Origin: Syntrophomonadaceae bacterium
GTDB lineage: Bacteria > Bacillota > Syntrophomonadia > Syntrophomonadales > Syntrophomonadaceae
NCBI GenBank assembly: GCA_012729835.1
Contig: JAAYCK010000113.1
Coordinates: 1-64,000 of the forward strand
Length of the DNA: 64,000 bases
Direction of reading: 5' to 3'
The notes below the pieces were generated by a model that saw only the letters and a list, made by a program, of their open reading frames with translations, had not been told where the DNA came from and did not search any database. Position numbers and translations under genes: made by a program. Position 1 is the first letter of the stretch. Each line of letters begins with the position of its first letter. Below, piece by piece: positions 8,840 to 18,195 of this stretch.

Positions 8840-10315
8840 CTATTCGAGTGCATCGCAGAGCGGCAGAAGTTTTTCCAATCGTTCGACGATGCGGTGCTGT
8901 TCAGCGAGAGGTGGGAGCGGGATAAGAGCTTTTGCAAACTTGGCATCATTTATAGCTGGGTAAGCGACTCCCCTCGAGTTCTCATTGTCATTTGCATAGC
9001 TATCAAAAGCTGGAGATAATAAATATCTAAACAGATATTTATTTAAAATCGGCATGGGTGTGCAAACAACTGCAAAACCTGTACTCACAATTGGTTCTGG
9101 CTCTATATTTCTATCTATAACACAAATATTATGCAAATATGGTCTAACTGTTGCGTAAATCACATCCCCCTTATGAACTATTTTTCTAGCTCTCGAAGGA
9201 GCTGCATTAGGCTGAAGAACATTATCTAAAGAACCTAAAGTATTCTTCTCGTTGTTAATAGACGAAATATCTATATATGTAAATTCTTGATCGGGGCATT
9301 TTTGGCCATGATTATATGTAATTGTTCCCAATCTTACCCAGCACCAATTCTTCGGAATATCAAAGGGGATCTCATCCTCCGTAATCTCCGGCAGATCCTT
9401 CTCCTTTTTAATTTTCTTTTCTTTGATAAGGCGTGCTTTCTCCTTCTGGATTTGTGCAACCAAATCGCGCGCATCTCCATCAGACTCCAGTTGTTCGGTA
9501 AGCTTGCCCTGGATGGCTGATTGAAGCAGAGAATCCTTCATTTTCTTGGGGAAAGATTTCCGAACAACATCCAGCTTAATTTCATCTTTTTCTAGTTTTT
9601 CTAGCTGAGGCAATAATTCTTCAATTTTCTCTACTATGCGTTGCTGTTCAGCAAAAGGAGGTAGCGGAACAATAAAATTCGAGATATCTGTTAAGCTAAT
9701 ATTAGCTCTTGCAGTATCCACCTTATTTCCCATCATTATTGAATATGCCAATGGGCTATTTAAGTACTTAACAATATATCGCCCCATATCAACCATAATA
9801 AGTCGTATCAGTGCAACAGCCTGATTTATATTGGCATTTTCCTCAAGATTAAATATTGTAGCTCGTCCAATTGAGGCACCTACGATATTTGTAAGTACAT
9901 CACCTACTTCTAAAATTGATCTTGACTGTAATTCATTGAATTTTAAGTCAACATACTTTTCTGCATCTAATAACAGTTTTTCGCATCCAACATTTTCACT
10001 TGTAACAAAAAGAACGCCAGATGAACAGTAATTAACCCCTTGCCATTTAGGAGATGAACCTTTGGTAACCATTTTGCATACTTCTCCTAATCTAACCCAA
10101 CACCAATTTTCAGGAATCTCAAAAGGGATCTCCTCTTCCGTGATCTCAGAAAGCGCCTTCTCCTTTTTGATTTTACCGTTCTTGATCAGTTGTGCTTTCT
10201 CCGCCTGAATCTTGACCAGTAAATCTTTTGCATCACCATCTTCCGGCAATTGCTCCGTCAACTTCCCCTGTATAGCCGCTTGCAGAATAGATTTCCGAAG
10301 TCGCTCAGCAATCAT
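8840..10315 (-). CDS. hsdS: Type I restriction-modification system specificity subunit
   Basis: Two target-recognition halves, each introduced by LLQ(S/A)AIQGKLTEQL...IPF(E/D)IP(E/K)NWCWVRLG; start trimmed to MIAERLRKS. Confidence 0.93.
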   Translation of the reverse strand: MIAERLRKSILQAAIQGKLTEQLPEDGDAKDLLVKIQAEKAQLIKNGKIKKEKALSEITEEEIPFEIPENWCWVRLGEVCKMVTKGSSPKWQGVNYCSSGVLFVTSENVGCEKLLLDAEKYVDLKFNELQSRSILEVGDVLTNIVGASIGRATIFNLEENANINQAVALIRLIMVDMGRYIVKYLNSPLAYSIMMGNKVDTARANISLTDISNFIVPLPPFAEQQRIVEKIEELLPQLEKLEKDEIKLDVVRKSFPKKMKDSLLQSAIQGKLTEQLESDGDARDLVAQIQKEKARLIKEKKIKKEKDLPEITEDEIPFDIPKNWCWVRLGTITYNHGQKCPDQEFTYIDISSINNEKNTLGSLDNVLQPNAAPSRARKIVHKGDVIYATVRPYLHNICVIDRNIEPEPIVSTGFAVVCTPMPILNKYLFRYLLSPAFDSYANDNENSRGVAYPAINDAKFAKALIPLPPLAEQHRIVERLEKLLPLCDALE

Positions 10316-11787
10316 CGAACGACCCCCAGGAGAGCTTCTATCTCGGCCAAGCGCTGGTCTATTTTTGCATTCAGCGCATCTCTCTTTTCGTGGAAGTTCT
10401 TGATGGTTTCTTCCGGGGACAGGACTTCTTCCTCGGCGGTTGGATAGCCGCACAGATCGAGGTCATAGCCACGAGCTGCAAGTTCCTGCACAGTATAGTC
10501 TTTTGACTTGTAAGTATCAGTCTCTGGGTCTTTGATTTCCTGGCGGTCATTCCACCAGGCAACACATTCATCGAAGTGTTCTACCTTCATCGGCTTGGTC
10601 TTGGAGAAGTGCTTGTATCCTTCCGGCATATCCACGCGATAGAACCAGACCTTATCCGTCTGCTTGGATTTGTCAAAGAACAGGATGTTGGTGGTGATGG
10701 GTGTATAGGGTGAGAACACGCTGGACGGCATGCGAACAACAGTATGCAGGTTGAACTCTTCAAGCAGCTTTTTTTTAATAGCGACCTTGGCATTATCGGT
10801 ACCGAAGAGGAATCCATCGGGGATGATAACCCCTGCTCGTCCATGCTCATTTAACCGGTACATAATTACCGACATGAACAGATCGGCTGTCTCACTGCTC
10901 CTAAGGTCAGCCGGGAAGTTAATCTTCACGCCTTCGCTCTCGGTTCCGCCATAGGGTGGATTCATCAGCGCAATATCAAATTTATCGCTGGCTTTATACT
11001 CACGGACGTTTCTTTCCAGGGAGTTGCCATGATATATTTGGGGATTGTCAATGTCATGCAGCAGCATATTAGTGATGCACAGCAGATATGGCAACGGCTT
11101 CTTTTCAATACCATAGATGCTCTGGTTGTACAGTTCTCTATCTTCAATGGTTTTAATCTGAGGCTCCAGCACCTTCAAGGTGGAGGTTAAAAACCCACCC
11201 GTACCGCAGGCAAAATCGCCAATGCGTTCACCCAGCTTCGGGTTAATCATCTTCACCATAAAGTCAGTAACCGCTCGGGGCGTATAGAACTCGCCCGCAT
11301 TACCAGCACTCTGTAAGCTCTTCAGAATGGTCTCATAAATATCACCAAAGGCATGGCGCTCATTATATTCATCGAATTCAATGGCATCAATTTCATTGAC
11401 TACTTTTCTCAGGAGTATGCCATCCTTCATGTACTGGTTGCTGTCTTCAAAAACTGCCTTCACGATTGACTTCTTCATGGGAGTTTTATCTGTAATAGCT
11501 AAATCTTTCAGAGTGGGGAAAAGCTTGTTGTTGACGAAATCCAGCAGGCTCTGGCCGGTCATGGCTTTTCCGTCTTTATGATCAACCGCCCAATTCCTCC
11601 AGCGTAGTTCTTCCGGTATGATGGACTCGTAGTTGTCATCATGAAATTCCCAGTCTTCTTCCTTGGCATCATAGACTTTCAAAAACAATATCCAGGCCAT
11701 CTGCTCAACTCTCTGAGCATCACCATTGATGCCGCTGTCTCCACGCATGATGTTTTGTATGGTCTTAACAAAACTCCCCAGGCTCAT
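10312..11787 (-). CDS. hsdM: Type I restriction-modification system DNA methyltransferase subunit
   Basis: GEFYTPRAVTDFMV, FACGTGGFL (SAM motif), NPPYGG (N6A MTase motif); 4-bp ATGA overlap with hsdS. Confidence 0.95.
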   Translation of the reverse strand: MSLGSFVKTIQNIMRGDSGINGDAQRVEQMAWILFLKVYDAKEEDWEFHDDNYESIIPEELRWRNWAVDHKDGKAMTGQSLLDFVNNKLFPTLKDLAITDKTPMKKSIVKAVFEDSNQYMKDGILLRKVVNEIDAIEFDEYNERHAFGDIYETILKSLQSAGNAGEFYTPRAVTDFMVKMINPKLGERIGDFACGTGGFLTSTLKVLEPQIKTIEDRELYNQSIYGIEKKPLPYLLCITNMLLHDIDNPQIYHGNSLERNVREYKASDKFDIALMNPPYGGTESEGVKINFPADLRSSETADLFMSVIMYRLNEHGRAGVIIPDGFLFGTDNAKVAIKKKLLEEFNLHTVVRMPSSVFSPYTPITTNILFFDKSKQTDKVWFYRVDMPEGYKHFSKTKPMKVEHFDECVAWWNDRQEIKDPETDTYKSKDYTVQELAARGYDLDLCGYPTAEEEVLSPEETIKNFHEKRDALNAKIDQRLAEIEALLGVVR

Positions 11788-11813: not shown

Positions 11814-14168
11814 TTATGCTGCTTCATAGATGGCTCTGGCTAAGCCTCTTACTGCTTGAATGTAGCCTTCTTTGCCGCCAAACAACTCGGCTATTTTCTT
11901 CGGACTTCCAATTTTATCGAATGGCGTGTTGTCCAGAATTCTTGTGTCTTCCAGTTCGCTGATACCTTCATTCATATACTTGTCCAGCAACGCAGAAAGT
12001 ACCTGCTGACAGACCTCTGAGTACTTGTAGAGATAACCCTGTTTCTTAACATGCTCTACCCGCTCTCTTTTGGTTAGCGGCTTTTTGTCATAAGCAACAT
12101 GGAGAATCAGATCAAAGTCATCTAAATCCTTGCCGGATTCTTCTTTCAAAGCATCCAAGAGCACACCCTGCTCTTGAAGTTCGTCCACAATTGCCTGCTT
12201 CTTGTCTGCGCTGCTCCAAGCGTGTAGGAACTCGTCCAAAGTTGCGTATTCCTCCCGGATGTTCCGCTTGCTGTAATCCTTAATGCTTTCAGTTATTAGC
12301 TTACCATCTTTGTCATAGTACTGAACACGCTCATTAAGAATCTTGACCGGTACCCCTCTCACCCGGTATTTCCTGAATGGCTCTCCTATGCCCGGTGGTT
12401 CAAAAGGTGGGGGATCGGTTGGATACTCAGGATCAGCGATATCATCCGGATGGTCAGGTATATCCGAATCATCAGGCTTAGTTGGGTCCCACTCGTCCCC
12501 TCCGTCGCCTCCATCTATAATGACTACCGGATCACCGTCAAAGTCAGGATCAACAAATAGCCTGCACGCATCACGAAAGTCCATGATGGTGAAATATTCT
12601 TTGCCATAGTCAGGATAGAGCCTGGTACCACGTCCGATAATCTGTTTGAACTCAGTTATGGAATTGATGACGTTATCAAGAACAATAAGTTGGCAGGTTT
12701 TGCAGTCAACTCCGGTGTTCATTAGTTTGGACGTCGTAACAACGGTGGGATATTTCTCATTAGCATCAATGAAATAATCCAACTGCGCTTTGCCTATTGG
12801 GTTATCACCTGTTATCCGCATGACGTATTTGGGATTCTCCGCCACCATATCTTTGTTTTCATTGACTATGGCCTGACGCATACGCTCGGCATGATCTATA
12901 TCCACGCAAAAAATAATTGTCTTACTAAAACGTCCATTTGCTTTTAGCCACTTGGTGATACGGTTGGCTACAGCTTGCGTTCTCTCATCAATAATTAGTT
13001 TACGGTCATAATCAGTAGTGTTATATTCCCGGTCTTCGATTTCATTACCATAGATATCGACTTGTCCCTTATATGGTCTCCAGCCTTCCAAGTCTCTGTC
13101 AAGACCGATGCGGATAACCTTATACGGTGCCAGGAATCCATCATCAATACCTTGCTTCAGACTATAGGTGTAAACCGATTCGCCAAAGTAAGTGATATTA
13201 CTGACTTCTTTGGTCTCTTTCGGAGTGGCTGTCATACCGACTTGAATTGCCGTATGGAAATAATCCAGAATCCGTCTCCACTGGGATTGTTCCTTAGCAC
13301 TACCACGATGGCACTCATCGACAATGATTAAATCAAAAAACTCCGGTTGGAATGCTCTAAACGGTTCTATCCCGTTATCGCCGGCCAATTGCTGATACAG
13401 ACTCATGTATATTTCATAGGAACTATCCAACTTTTTATCCTGAACCTTAGTCATAATCTTTTCAAATGGCTTAAAGTCCTACTGCATAGTTTGATCAATG
13501 AGAATATTCCGATCAGCCAAGTAAAGGACTCTCTTTACCGTCTCTGTTTTGAGCAGCTTCCATATAATTTGAAAAGCAGTATAAGTTTTTCCTGTGCCAG
13601 TTGCCATAACCAGCAAAATCCGGTCTTGCCCTTTGGCTATAGCTTCCAAGGTTTTATTGATAGCAATACGCTGATAGTATCGCGGTTTTGTCTGTGAGAA
13701 GGTATCAAAGTAATCAGGTTCTGCCACAACTTTCTCTTGTGCATCATCAAAGCCCTTACCTTTTATATAGCGACTCCATAACTCACTTTCATTTGGGAAA
13801 TTATCAAGTTCCAGCTCACGTTCTTCGCCGGTGAAGTAATCATACTCAATAAATCCACTGCCATTGGAGGAATAGGCAAAAGGAATATTGAGAATCTCTG
13901 CGTAATCCATTGCCTGCTGAAGACCATCTCCAACAGAATGATCAGCATCTTTAGCTTCGATAATGGCCAGCGGTAACTGCCCGTCTTGATGTGTAAGAAG
14001 GTAATCCGCTTTTTTGCGCTTACCCCTCTTTACCGTATTACCACGCACTAAAACCTGACCATCGGTAAAGAAATACTCCATCAGGATCTGGTTCTTCGTC
14101 CATCCTGCCTCTTCAATAGCTGGCGTGATGTAACGGAATTTTATATCTTCTTCAGTCAGTTTTTTCAT
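11814..14168 (-). pseudogene. hsdR: Type I restriction endonuclease subunit, interrupted by a single in-frame TAG
   Basis: ORFs 13479..14168 and 11814..13454 are in the same frame; read-through is ...LADRNILIDQTMQ-TAG-DFKPFEKIMTKVQ...; nuclease (AIIEAKDAD), Walker A (ATGTGKT) and DECH motifs all present. Confidence 0.88.
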
Positions 14169-14564: not shown

Positions 14565-15092
14565 CTATCCTTCTAAGCCTTTGTTCTCCGTCTCATGGAT
14601 GTTTATCGCCTCTACCCGTTTACGTACGTAATTGGTTTGTTTCCTGTAAGCAAATAGAAACATCACAACAAGGAGTGCTATTACTCCCCATTCCCAATTC
14701 AAAGAGAACCATCTCCATTTTAAAGATAATGCATTTAACACCCGCATAACCGGAAGAAGCAGGACGCACGTTAGGAGTGACCGAGTATAGTTATTCATTT
14801 CTGACAGGGTATCAATCTTTAAATCAGCTCTCGAGGCTTTTACAAAGTCGGGGTATGGCGCATATTTGACGAAACAGATTTTCTTCAAAATAGGTTCCAC
14901 AACTAAAGAACTTATTCTATTAATAATGAGTCCCATAAAGTAATACACCACTATATCCTCGCCTACATTTTGGGTTGGTAAAGTCAACCCGAAGAAAAAC
15001 TTGAGGGCCAATCCGAAGAATGCTCCTGGCAATAGGTTGGTCATTATTTGATATGAACCCAATTTTTCAAGAATGCCGCCCATAGTAGTCAC
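14565..15092 (-). CDS. Multi-TM membrane protein, uncharacterised
   Basis: At least four hydrophobic segments; coupled to the upstream gene by overlap. Confidence 0.75.
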   Translation of the reverse strand: MTTMGGILEKLGSYQIMTNLLPGAFFGLALKFFFGLTLPTQNVGEDIVVYYFMGLIINRISSLVVEPILKKICFVKYAPYPDFVKASRADLKIDTLSEMNNYTRSLLTCVLLLPVMRVLNALSLKWRWFSLNWEWGVIALLVVMFLFAYRKQTNYVRKRVEAINIHETENKGLEG

Positions 15093-15633
15093 TCCCTAAT
15101 TCACCAGGTATTATAAGAGGCGATACCCGATCGAATGAAATTTGTATTGCCTCTACAAGACCTTTACGCCTGTTCATATATAGTTTTCGTTCGGATAATG
15201 ACGTTGGGAAACCGAACTGACCAACATTGTTTAATGTAGTTGAGTGCCAAAAATTCCCGTTGTCTACCGACAACTCTTGTTTAGCAAAATACAGTTCGAC
15301 TTCCCGATTGATACTCATCATCTTAAACAATATTTCCTTACCTAACATTCTTCTCAAGATACAGGTATTTGCAACAACGAACTTGCCAACACAAATTTTC
15401 CTAAAGGAACAGAGCTTTTCAACATCCCAAATATGTGCTGTTATTAATGTTCCATCTATCCCATCATCTGAAGTGCAGCAAAGATATTCTTTGAATACTT
15501 GTCCATTTATCTGTAAGAAGTCCCAGGCCGAGACTTCGGCATCTGTCACAAGTTGAATATACTCTCTTCGCGCCCCTACTTGCTTACTATCAACAGCAAT
15601 GTCCTTATCATTACCTATAATCCATCTCACCAA
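15067..15633 (-). CDS. Uncharacterised cytosolic protein of MBL operon
   Basis: 188-aa ORF overlapping both neighbours in the operon; no recognised domain. Confidence 0.7.
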   Translation of the reverse strand: MVRWIIGNDKDIAVDSKQVGARREYIQLVTDAEVSAWDFLQINGQVFKEYLCCTSDDGIDGTLITAHIWDVEKLCSFRKICVGKFVVANTCILRRMLGKEILFKMMSINREVELYFAKQELSVDNGNFWHSTTLNNVGQFGFPTSLSERKLYMNRRKGLVEAIQISFDRVSPLIIPGELGSDYYGRHS

Positions 15634-16558
15634 GCCTTACTCCTTGTTGTTGTCTACTCGTTACGCTCACATATGCGCTTCCGGGGATTAATACCAATCC
15701 ACTTTTGGTATTCAGTGCAGGATCATATTTTTCGTCCTTCATGTACTGTACCAACTGGTCGGAACCCCCGCTCGTTGCTGCTGAGCCTGTATTGTCAGAG
15801 ATGAAATAAGTCTTATTGTAAGGATTGGTTAGGTTCTCTTCAAATATCGCCTGTGCATCATCTAATTGACCATGATGTGGTAATTGAATGATGGAATAGC
15901 TGTCAAGATTATGCAGATATAAGGGCGAAGCATCGCCGCACAGCAGGATAGTTTCAGCATTTTCCAATTTGCATTCCAGCTGAACGCTTGCCGCATTCAT
16001 TACCGTCTCCTCGGCATGTCCTTCGCCAATATTATTGCTGACTCGATTGTCTACAGCCTTAGCTGCGACATCAGTAAATTCATCGATTGTAGGCCCAACA
16101 ATTGTACAATTACCTACATTTGTTCCGCTTAAAGCTTCTACCGTAAGAAAACCACATGCTTGCGCTGATTCAATAATCGTCTTAATGTTGTCAAATTCAT
16201 CCAACAACGACTGTTCTAAACTATCACGGTTCCTTCGTTTATCACTAATTTTGTCTAGAATAGTATCGACATGCTTCAGATACTGGTGTGAATAGACGAT
16301 TACCACATATTGGCCCTTTGCATACAACCAATCAAGCAACTTACACACTCCATCGGTATGGTCGCTATCATTGTGCGACACGACGATATGTACCTGTGAA
16401 ATCGACCGATCAGATTGTAAGAACGCTTCAACTGCTTCCGCATGTCTGGTATGTCCGCAGTCGTATACGACCAGAGATGTATTGTCATAAAGCAGTATAC
16501 AATCCCCGAACCGTTTATCCAGATCTCCGTCATAATTGCTTAATGCCTTTAGCCTCAT
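15611..16558 (-). CDS. MBL-fold (ComEC-C-like) hydrolase
   Basis: Metal-binding motif VVSHNDSDHTDG, second motif IQLPHHGQLDD; RBS aaagga upstream of MRLKALSNYDGD start. Confidence 0.8.
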   Translation of the reverse strand: MRLKALSNYDGDLDKRFGDCILLYDNTSLVVYDCGHTRHAEAVEAFLQSDRSISQVHIVVSHNDSDHTDGVCKLLDWLYAKGQYVVIVYSHQYLKHVDTILDKISDKRRNRDSLEQSLLDEFDNIKTIIESAQACGFLTVEALSGTNVGNCTIVGPTIDEFTDVAAKAVDNRVSNNIGEGHAEETVMNAASVQLECKLENAETILLCGDASPLYLHNLDSYSIIQLPHHGQLDDAQAIFEENLTNPYNKTYFISDNTGSAATSGGSDQLVQYMKDEKYDPALNTKSGLVLIPGSAYVSVTSRQQQGVRLGEMDYR

Positions 16559-16648
16559 AATAATTCCTTTCTGCAAGCGCATCGAGGTGGCTTGCTCACC
16601 TTTATATTTACAATATTAATCACAGAGAGGGGGCATCTCTGTATTCAG

Positions 16649-16675
16649 CTAGCACTCAACTCCCCCGAGTGCTAA
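16649..16675. promoter_or_regulatory. CIRCE element (HrcA operator)
   Basis: Minus strand TTAGCACTC-GGGGGAGTT-GAGTGCTAG versus consensus TTAGCACTC-N9-GAGTGCTAA; 17 of 18 arm positions match. Confidence 0.9.
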
Positions 16676-16684
16676 TCCGTTATC

Positions 16685-16713
16685 AATATATCATCACAGA
16701 TATTCACCGTCAA
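16685..16713 (-). promoter_or_regulatory. Sigma-A-type promoter for MBL operon
   Basis: Minus strand TTGACG-17 nt-TATATT, immediately upstream of CIRCE. Confidence 0.8.
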
Positions 16714-16845: not shown

Positions 16846-18195
16846 TTGTTATCTGAATTTAAGGTAGGTAATTTTCTTTCCTTCGACGAAATACAGACTT
16901 TTTCCATGGAAGCCGGAAAAGTACGCAGTAAGATTGATAGGGTATATGCAGATGGTAATTTTAAACTACTTAAATTCATGGCGATTTACGGGGCTAACGC
17001 ATCCGGAAAATCAAATCTGGTAAGTGCTTTTGATTTTGCCCAAAATGTTATTGAAAGAGGCATCCCAACAAGTTGCAGCAATTGCTATTGTCGTTTGAAA
17101 GATGACAATAAATATAAACCCTCACATTTCGAATTTACTATTAAAATAGGAAATGAAAAATATGTATATGGCTTTGACCTATTATTAAGCTCTGCAAGTT
17201 TTGTGACAGAATATTTGAAGCAAATACGCTATGGCAAAACTTATAAGACGGTGTTTTTTAGAGATATTCCTACGGGTAAGTACGAGGTTAATTCTTACTT
17301 CAAAGATGCTGCTATAAATGAGCGCTTAAAAATATATGCGGAAGACGTTAAAGAAGACAGTTCCATTCTTTTTCTGCGACTAATGAATCAAAATAAGGAT
17401 TCACTTTATGCGAACGAATCGGACATCAAGATATATAAATTAGTATATAATTGGTTTAAATACAAACTGAGTGTAAATTATCCTGACAGACCGATAACTA
17501 ATTATTCATATTTAATGGATAGTGAGAGTGTTAGCCAAATTGGTAAGCTGTTATCTTTTTTTGGCACAGGTGTTTCTGAATTCGACATTGCGGATGTCGC
17601 TATAGAAAAGGTAACTGCCAAGCTGCCGAAAGAATTAATGCAGAATATTATTGATCATCTCAATGAGCAAAAAAAGCATTATATAGAAAAAGATACTCAT
17701 AATACTCCTGCAATTATGCTTCGTTCGGAAGATAACTTGATGTATATTATTCAACTTGAAAACGATAATATAAAATGCAAGACACTGGAGTTTAAGCATG
17801 AAAAAACTAACGCGGTTTTTTCTTTGGAAGAAGAATCAGATGGTACAATTCGTCTGCTGGACTTAATAGAGGTACTCCTAAGTAAGGATAGTGAACGAAT
17901 ATATATCATTGACGAAATCAACAGACGTTTTCACCCACTACTAACATATAAGTTTATTGAAGAATATCTAAATTTGGCTTCAACCCGTAATATTCAATTA
18001 ATTGTTACTACACATGAATCAAAATTAATGGATTTTGATCTACTTCGTAAGGATGAGATTGGATTTATTGATAAAGATGAAAATGGAAGATCAACTATTT
18101 TTTCTTTAGATTCCTTCAGCGAGCGTTTTGATAAGAAAGTATGCAAAGCTTACTTTGAGGGTAAATACGGTTCTATTCCGAGATTCAAGATTTGA
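16846..18195 (+). CDS. AAA15/AAA21-type ATP-binding protein (AbiLi-like, candidate defense ATPase)
   Basis: N-terminal LSFDEIQTFSMEAG, Walker A GANASGKSNL, Walker B IYIIDEINRRFHPLLT, C-term FDKKVCKAYFEGKYGSIPRF. Confidence 0.85.
   Translation: MLSEFKVGNFLSFDEIQTFSMEAGKVRSKIDRVYADGNFKLLKFMAIYGANASGKSNLVSAFDFAQNVIERGIPTSCSNCYCRLKDDNKYKPSHFEFTIKIGNEKYVYGFDLLLSSASFVTEYLKQIRYGKTYKTVFFRDIPTGKYEVNSYFKDAAINERLKIYAEDVKEDSSILFLRLMNQNKDSLYANESDIKIYKLVYNWFKYKLSVNYPDRPITNYSYLMDSESVSQIGKLLSFFGTGVSEFDIADVAIEKVTAKLPKELMQNIIDHLNEQKKHYIEKDTHNTPAIMLRSEDNLMYIIQLENDNIKCKTLEFKHEKTNAVFSLEEESDGTIRLLDLIEVLLSKDSERIYIIDEINRRFHPLLTYKFIEEYLNLASTRNIQLIVTTHESKLMDFDLLRKDEIGFIDKDENGRSTIFSLDSFSERFDKKVCKAYFEGKYGSIPRFKI

Follow-up and report, generated by a model that had tools for sequence, protein, structure and literature searches.

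We identified a conserved three-gene cassette in the window (the whole stretch of DNA that was analysed, 64,000 nucleotides) with a CIRCE element, the operator of the heat-shock regulator HrcA, at its promoter. The genes encode a metallo-beta-lactamase-fold hydrolase (MBL), a middle protein (MID) and a small membrane protein (TM). The gene set, half-listed as the PDC-M48 candidate, is extended here by a third family that is new and by a regulatory link that was not expected. The CIRCE/HrcA wiring, absent from the preliminary description of this DNA, is the most informative feature of the locus, suggesting a defence system triggered by overload of the protein-folding machinery. As a defence system the cassette is unproven.

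Gene order and distribution

15611..16558, minus strand: MBL, ComEC-type metallo-beta-lactamase-fold hydrolase (315 aa, PDC-M48B-like)
15067..15633, minus strand: MID, middle protein of an unlisted family (188 aa; invariant His67 and Cys91)
14565..15092, minus strand: TM, small four-helix membrane protein of the PDC-M48A family (hydropathy, alignment)

The three overlapping minus-strand genes of the preliminary description were recovered as open reading frames at these positions, with overlaps of 23 and 26 nt. The first value, between the MBL stop and the MID start, applies to TTG 15633 and becomes 20 nt with the following codon, GTG. The second, between the MID stop and the TM start, is counted from GTG 15092 and becomes 17 nt from ATG 15083, the likelier start, to which the relatives align and which has AGGGAG upstream of it. 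TM is 175 aa long from GTG and 172 aa from ATG. The MBL/MID overlap is kept at 14-26 nt in nearly all relatives, and in most of them a ribosome site (AAGGAG or AAGGGG) lies within the end of MBL, ahead of the MID start. The MID/TM overlap is not conserved among relatives.

An MBL alignment run against 84,980 species genomes returned 22 loci (numbered with the prefix L), nearly all in Clostridia, and two viral contigs carry MBL loci beyond these. Two wider searches at family and order level added six further cassettes that had not been used before. In locus counts L029 is treated as a copy of L028, and L166, a near-copy of L030 that ends inside a second MBL, is counted with L030. Co-occurrence across genomes had been set beforehand as a test of the unit. 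MID directly follows MBL in all 30 loci with continuing sequence, and the objection that the genes do not co-occur fails for that reason. The next gene encodes a membrane protein in 29 of 29 loci; 19 of these proteins are PDC-M48A-like and 10 belong to other kinds. In L027 and L030 the membrane-protein gene follows a second MBL. The earlier proposal of a conserved three-gene unit in defence contexts, with MID between the MBL enzyme and a membrane protein, is upheld, and the gene set is almost certainly a real and conserved cassette.

Among 399 genomes of the phylum, TM was identified in six and MID in three, the latter being the same three that have MBL-MID-TM; one further "TM" match (G054) was left out, having 5 stops. 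Viral contigs scanned with TM alone as query gave no match, nor did plasmids searched by tblastn with MBL or MID. The cassette is mobile.

In L027 (9560-11620), L030 and L166 the slot of the third gene is taken by another TM protein and a second MBL that matches the AGS_C sensor weakly. The effector part is exchangeable. The cassettes of L018 and L037 are on contigs binned as Bacteroidales MAGs, with relatives in Clostridia, which reflects either mis-binning or transfer.

The membrane protein and the hydrolase

TM has four hydrophobic segments by hydropathy, as expected for the small multi-TM protein described before, and matches PADLOC PDC-M48A over its full length (171 bits, E 4.6e-51). MBL scores 20.6 bits against Pfam Lactamase_B, just below the cut-off, and 55 bits against PADLOC PDC-M48B, over residues 25-170 only; the MBLs of two loci without MID reach 329 and 594 bits. 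Because TM matches PDC-M48A and MBL, weakly, PDC-M48B, the pair counts among the listed candidates for phage defence and the system cannot be called undescribed, as it first was. The novelty of the gene set lies in the middle gene. The PDC names reportedly originate from a preprint by Payne et al. on embedded defences. In the literature searched we found no paper naming PDC-M48, and no phage assay for the cassette or for PDC-M48.

The ComEC-type motifs of MBL, SHNDSDH (SHxDxDH), GD and QxPHHG (HHG), are conserved in 25 relatives, and their alignment shows no variation at H62, D64, D66, H67, D209 and H228. The HNDSDH motif of the preliminary description, read there as that of a metal-dependent hydrolase, is thereby confirmed as present.

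Two-gene relatives, in which TM is convergent with a longer MBL, were identified in 44 of 5426 E. coli genomes and on small plasmids, including a Citrobacter plasmid, with relatives annotated as ComEC/Rec2. Another two-gene relative lies between gpA and cos in P2_4E6b; this P2 site is a hotspot for defence genes, and systems from it have been validated (PMC9122126). The MBL gene of P2_4E6b, a Peduovirus, is annotated "tail protein" (L008:423-1508), likely a mislabel given its 329 bits against PDC-M48B.

The middle protein

The middle protein had been said to have no recognised domain, and indeed no convincing match to MID was identified in Pfam, NCBIfam, PADLOC or PHROGs. The fold search proposed for it gave a confident AF2 model (pLDDT 89.8, pTM 0.85) that Foldseek matched, at E <= 0.001, to nothing in the PDB or among viral folds. 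The model of a second, larger member has no significant PDB match by Foldseek. His67 and Cys91 are invariant among 24 aligned relatives, and Q119 and S147 nearly so.

In the model, H67 would follow a strand (61-65) and C91 another (85-89), with a helix between them; a strand-His then strand-Cys motif, as in caspase-like (clan CD) cysteine proteases, is present. A caspase or CHAT protease is no more than a lead: although the motif order fits, there is no caspase among the listed Foldseek matches of two AF2 models, and a Pfam profile match is also lacking. The modelled arrangement makes "cysteine hydrolase" a lead only. A sortase was rejected, as one member matches PF04203 at E 0.034 but the His-Cys spacing of 24 is unsuited and the alpha/beta secondary structure is also out of keeping. 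A larger MID with GHTGD and NTC motifs is encoded in L020, L033 and L034. Conserved among relatives and modelled with confidence, MID fits no known family; it adds a candidate enzyme to a defence candidate for which the PADLOC models cover MBL and the membrane protein only.

A CIRCE operator at the cassette promoter

16685..16713, minus strand: sigma-70-type promoter of the MBL operon, TTGACG-N17-TATATT (consensus match)
16649..16675, minus strand: CIRCE (HrcA operator), TTAGCACTC-N9-GAGTGCTAG, 1 mismatch in 18
16573..16595, minus strand: leader inverted repeat GCAAGC-N11-GCTTGC, directly before the MBL Shine-Dalgarno

CIRCE is defined as TTAGCACTC-N9-GAGTGCTAA and typically lies ahead of the groE and dnaK operons (PMC3842655). 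The element of the window, TTAGCACTC-N9-GAGTGCTA, is 9 nt downstream of the -10 of the operon promoter. When the promoters of the window and L019 are aligned, TTAGCACTC-N9-GAGTGCTAG stands out as an island of identity. Overall, CIRCE is present at <=3 mismatches in eight loci: with one mismatch in the window, L019 and L014, with two in L021, L028 and L032, and with three in L038 and in L168, one of the later, independent loci, among which L171 has a decayed copy (5 mismatches). Every such site in the loci first fetched is upstream of MBL. Degenerate copies (4-6 mismatches) occupy the same place in L024, L025, L027 and L030. Chance is ruled out as the source of the element, since 0.02 sites at <=3 mismatches are expected per window, where one was identified, and none of 17,833 random 250-nt stretches of the same loci contains one. 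The reversed pattern has no match in 23 genomes.

The element follows the -10 of an MBL-facing sigma-70-type promoter by 4-12 nt in the window, L019, L014, L021, L032 and L038. An operator of the divergent ATPase gene was considered and rejected for the window, where only 9 nt separate CIRCE from the MBL -10 and more than 110 nt separate it from the ATPase -35. The element of L014 and L038, by contrast, is roughly halfway between the MBL and ATPase sides.

The host genome encodes one HrcA (PF01628, 186 bits) and has four good CIRCE sites, at hrcA, groES, htpG and the cassette operon. All 16 non-cassette sites examined adjoin chaperone genes; for the sites examined in three further genomes with the cassette, and for a single site of one more, the neighbours are groES, hrcA, htpG, clpB or hsp20 (genes named by reading their sequence). 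With CIRCE at its promoter and the other sites at chaperone genes, the operon belongs, judged by sequence, to the heat-shock regulon, and control through CIRCE is very probable. The element is absent or decayed in about 22 of the 30 loci, where an XRE regulator, an R-M operon or a different companion takes its place. Thus, the cassette does not depend on HrcA control. In the literature searched, nothing links CIRCE/HrcA with phage defence.

Exact CIRCE elements, sometimes paired, were also identified on viral contigs (L111, L115, L132) before short phage genes unlike chaperones. Many further viral sites lie ahead of groES, hsp20 or htpG-like genes.

The 6-bp inverted repeat of the leader recurs in nine loci, with and without CIRCE. 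Two-sided (compensatory) changes occur at three of the six pairs, and 92.6% of cells are paired, compared with 22-39% when the repeat is slid. The repeat may form an RNA hairpin or serve as a second operator. Rfam identified no known RNA in the MBL leader. In L035-L037, loci without CIRCE, a different AU-rich hairpin (-12 to -14 kcal/mol), resembling an RNA thermometer, lies over the Shine-Dalgarno about 50 nt upstream of MBL.

Neighbouring genes

16846..18195, plus strand: divergent AAA_21/AbiLi-like ATPase (PADLOC AbiLi, 229 bits)
11814..14168, minus strand: hsdR of a type I R-M system (two separate matches to NF046051)
10312..11787, minus strand: hsdM of the type I R-M system (N6_Mtase, 232 bits)
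8840..10453, minus strand: hsdS of the type I R-M system (Methylase_S, 85 bits)

The type I R-M system and the ATPase reported beside the cassette are both present, the latter matching AAA_21 (89 bits) and, more weakly, AAA_15. The hsdR gene (EcoAI-like) is broken by a single in-frame TAG at 13479-13481, which the earlier reading lacks. From this codon, restriction by the neighbouring system is probably off, beside an intact cassette, if it is not a sequencing error.

Companions vary among relatives, where the names RloB, TOPRIM and R-M come from reading the sequence rather than from profiles. A divergent AAA ATPase is upstream in the window, L014, L019, L028, L032, L038 and L171. A co-directional ATPase is accompanied by an RloB/AbiLii-like gene in L024, L025, L027, L030 and L166 and by a TOPRIM-like gene in L026, and an ATPase stands alone in L031, L039 and L047. 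XRE-type regulators are upstream in L018, L022, L035, L036, L037, L048, L168, L169 and L172. R-M genes lie beside the cassette in the window, L014 and L021; type I R-M operons enclose the cassette in L033, L034 and L020, with hsdM (partial in L020) on one side and hsdS on the other.

In L019/L013 the same place holds an ATPase 75% identical to the one in the window, whereas that of L014, in the same slot, is of a different subfamily and only distant kin. Thus, different ATPases fill the same slot. CIRCE tracks the divergent ATPase: it is present in 6 of 7 loci with that gene and in 2 of the 23 without it (Fisher p 0.0003, from our own compilation of loci that are related and not independent). 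The divergent ATPase is a probable optional partner of the cassette.

Proposed function

We favour phage defence because TM and, weakly, MBL match PDC-M48A and PDC-M48B, occurrence is patchy, R-M and ATPase genes are neighbours and relatives reside in the P2 hotspot. The low score of MBL against PDC-M48B (55 bits) speaks against it. The cassette would be a mobile abortive-infection-like module consisting of the PDC-M48 pair (MBL and TM) and MID as a third component. HrcA, bound at the CIRCE operator, would keep it silent. HrcA requires GroEL to bind DNA fully. Its repression relies on GroE, and occupation of GroE lifts it (PMC3842655, PMC8533110). Infection or another stress would fill GroEL with clients, such as phage capsid protein, and the release of HrcA would induce the operon along with the chaperones. 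Capsid folding in some phages, lambda and T4 among them, requires the chaperonin of the host. After induction the MBL-MID pair would turn active, and TM, alone or activated by this pair, would arrest the cell, we infer by membrane damage.

This whole chain, from a cassette silenced by HrcA and freed by chaperonin titration to arrest of the cell, is a tentative reading whose chances fall somewhat short of even. It is possible, if rather doubtful, that HrcA-GroEL acts as an indirect phage sensor, such that phages needing the chaperonin titrate it and switch on the CIRCE operon, with a MID enzyme of new fold in the effector. We did not find host guarding through HrcA-GroEL titration described in the literature for any defence system.

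CIRCE makes a serious rival of a general stress or envelope quality-control operon, in which MBL, MID and TM would repair or shut the membrane in heat or proteotoxic stress and would be under HrcA because of that role. CIRCE otherwise adjoins groES, hrcA, htpG, clpB and hsp20, TM is membrane-bound by hydropathy, and heat-shock control fits a non-phage stress function too, which counts against the defence reading. However, a stress operon sits poorly with patchy occurrence (about 1% of genomes), R-M and ATPase neighbours, the location of two-gene relatives at the P2 hotspot and XRE-linked loci that lack CIRCE, and we consider it unlikely.

The invariant SHxDxDH, GD and HHG motifs of ComEC type, the ComEC/Rec2 annotation of relatives and a weak likeness to the MBLs LmuA and Avs1a would also suit a membrane-anchored nuclease, cutting incoming phage or plasmid DNA with TM as anchor and MID as cofactor, and involving no suicide. 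Yet TM is replaceable by unrelated TM proteins, and inducible control would be slow for blocking DNA entry; this role is improbable. A toxin-antitoxin-like unit silenced by XRE or HrcA, with TM as toxin restrained by MBL or MID, would explain XRE-type regulators beside about nine loci and gene overlaps that imply coupled dosage, but is very unlikely; MBL retains its whole set of catalytic residues, which is odd for a pure antitoxin.

How abortive systems keep quiet until infection is a live question. If the phage-defence reading is true, placing the cassette under the chaperone regulon's operator would couple immunity to the protein-folding state, and chaperonin-dependent phages would betray themselves. 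Bacillus subtilis has HrcA and CIRCE.

Comparison with known systems

AVAST type 1 (Avs1a) and Lamassu (LmuA) resemble the cassette in being multi-gene defence systems that include an enzyme of the MBL fold, with weak sequence matches. Unlike AVAST type 1, the window cassette has no STAND NTPase-protease open reading frame beside it, and its MBL scores 18.7 bits against Avs1a, for which the cut-off is 420. The match to LmuA is 21.5 bits, and unlike Lamassu the operon is without the SMC protein LmuB, its neighbouring ATPase being AbiLi-like. That likeness (229 bits) recalls AbiL/RloB-type systems, as does the ATPase with an RloB/AbiLii-like gene just upstream in four relatives (L024, L025, L027, L030). 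The ATPase of the window, however, has no second gene and points away from the cassette.

The cassette is also like PDC-M48: TM clearly belongs to M48A, MBL is distantly related to M48B, and both genes are in one locus. The window cassette differs in its conserved third protein, MID, which is absent from the PADLOC listing, in its predicted CIRCE control and in its form, an overlapping same-strand operon as opposed to the convergent pair of P2_4E6b and a Citrobacter plasmid. In operator sequence, spacing and position at the predicted transcription start, the operon matches the CIRCE/HrcA class I heat-shock regulon (PMC3842655). Members of that regulon in these genomes are chaperones, whereas the operon of the window is a candidate for defence.
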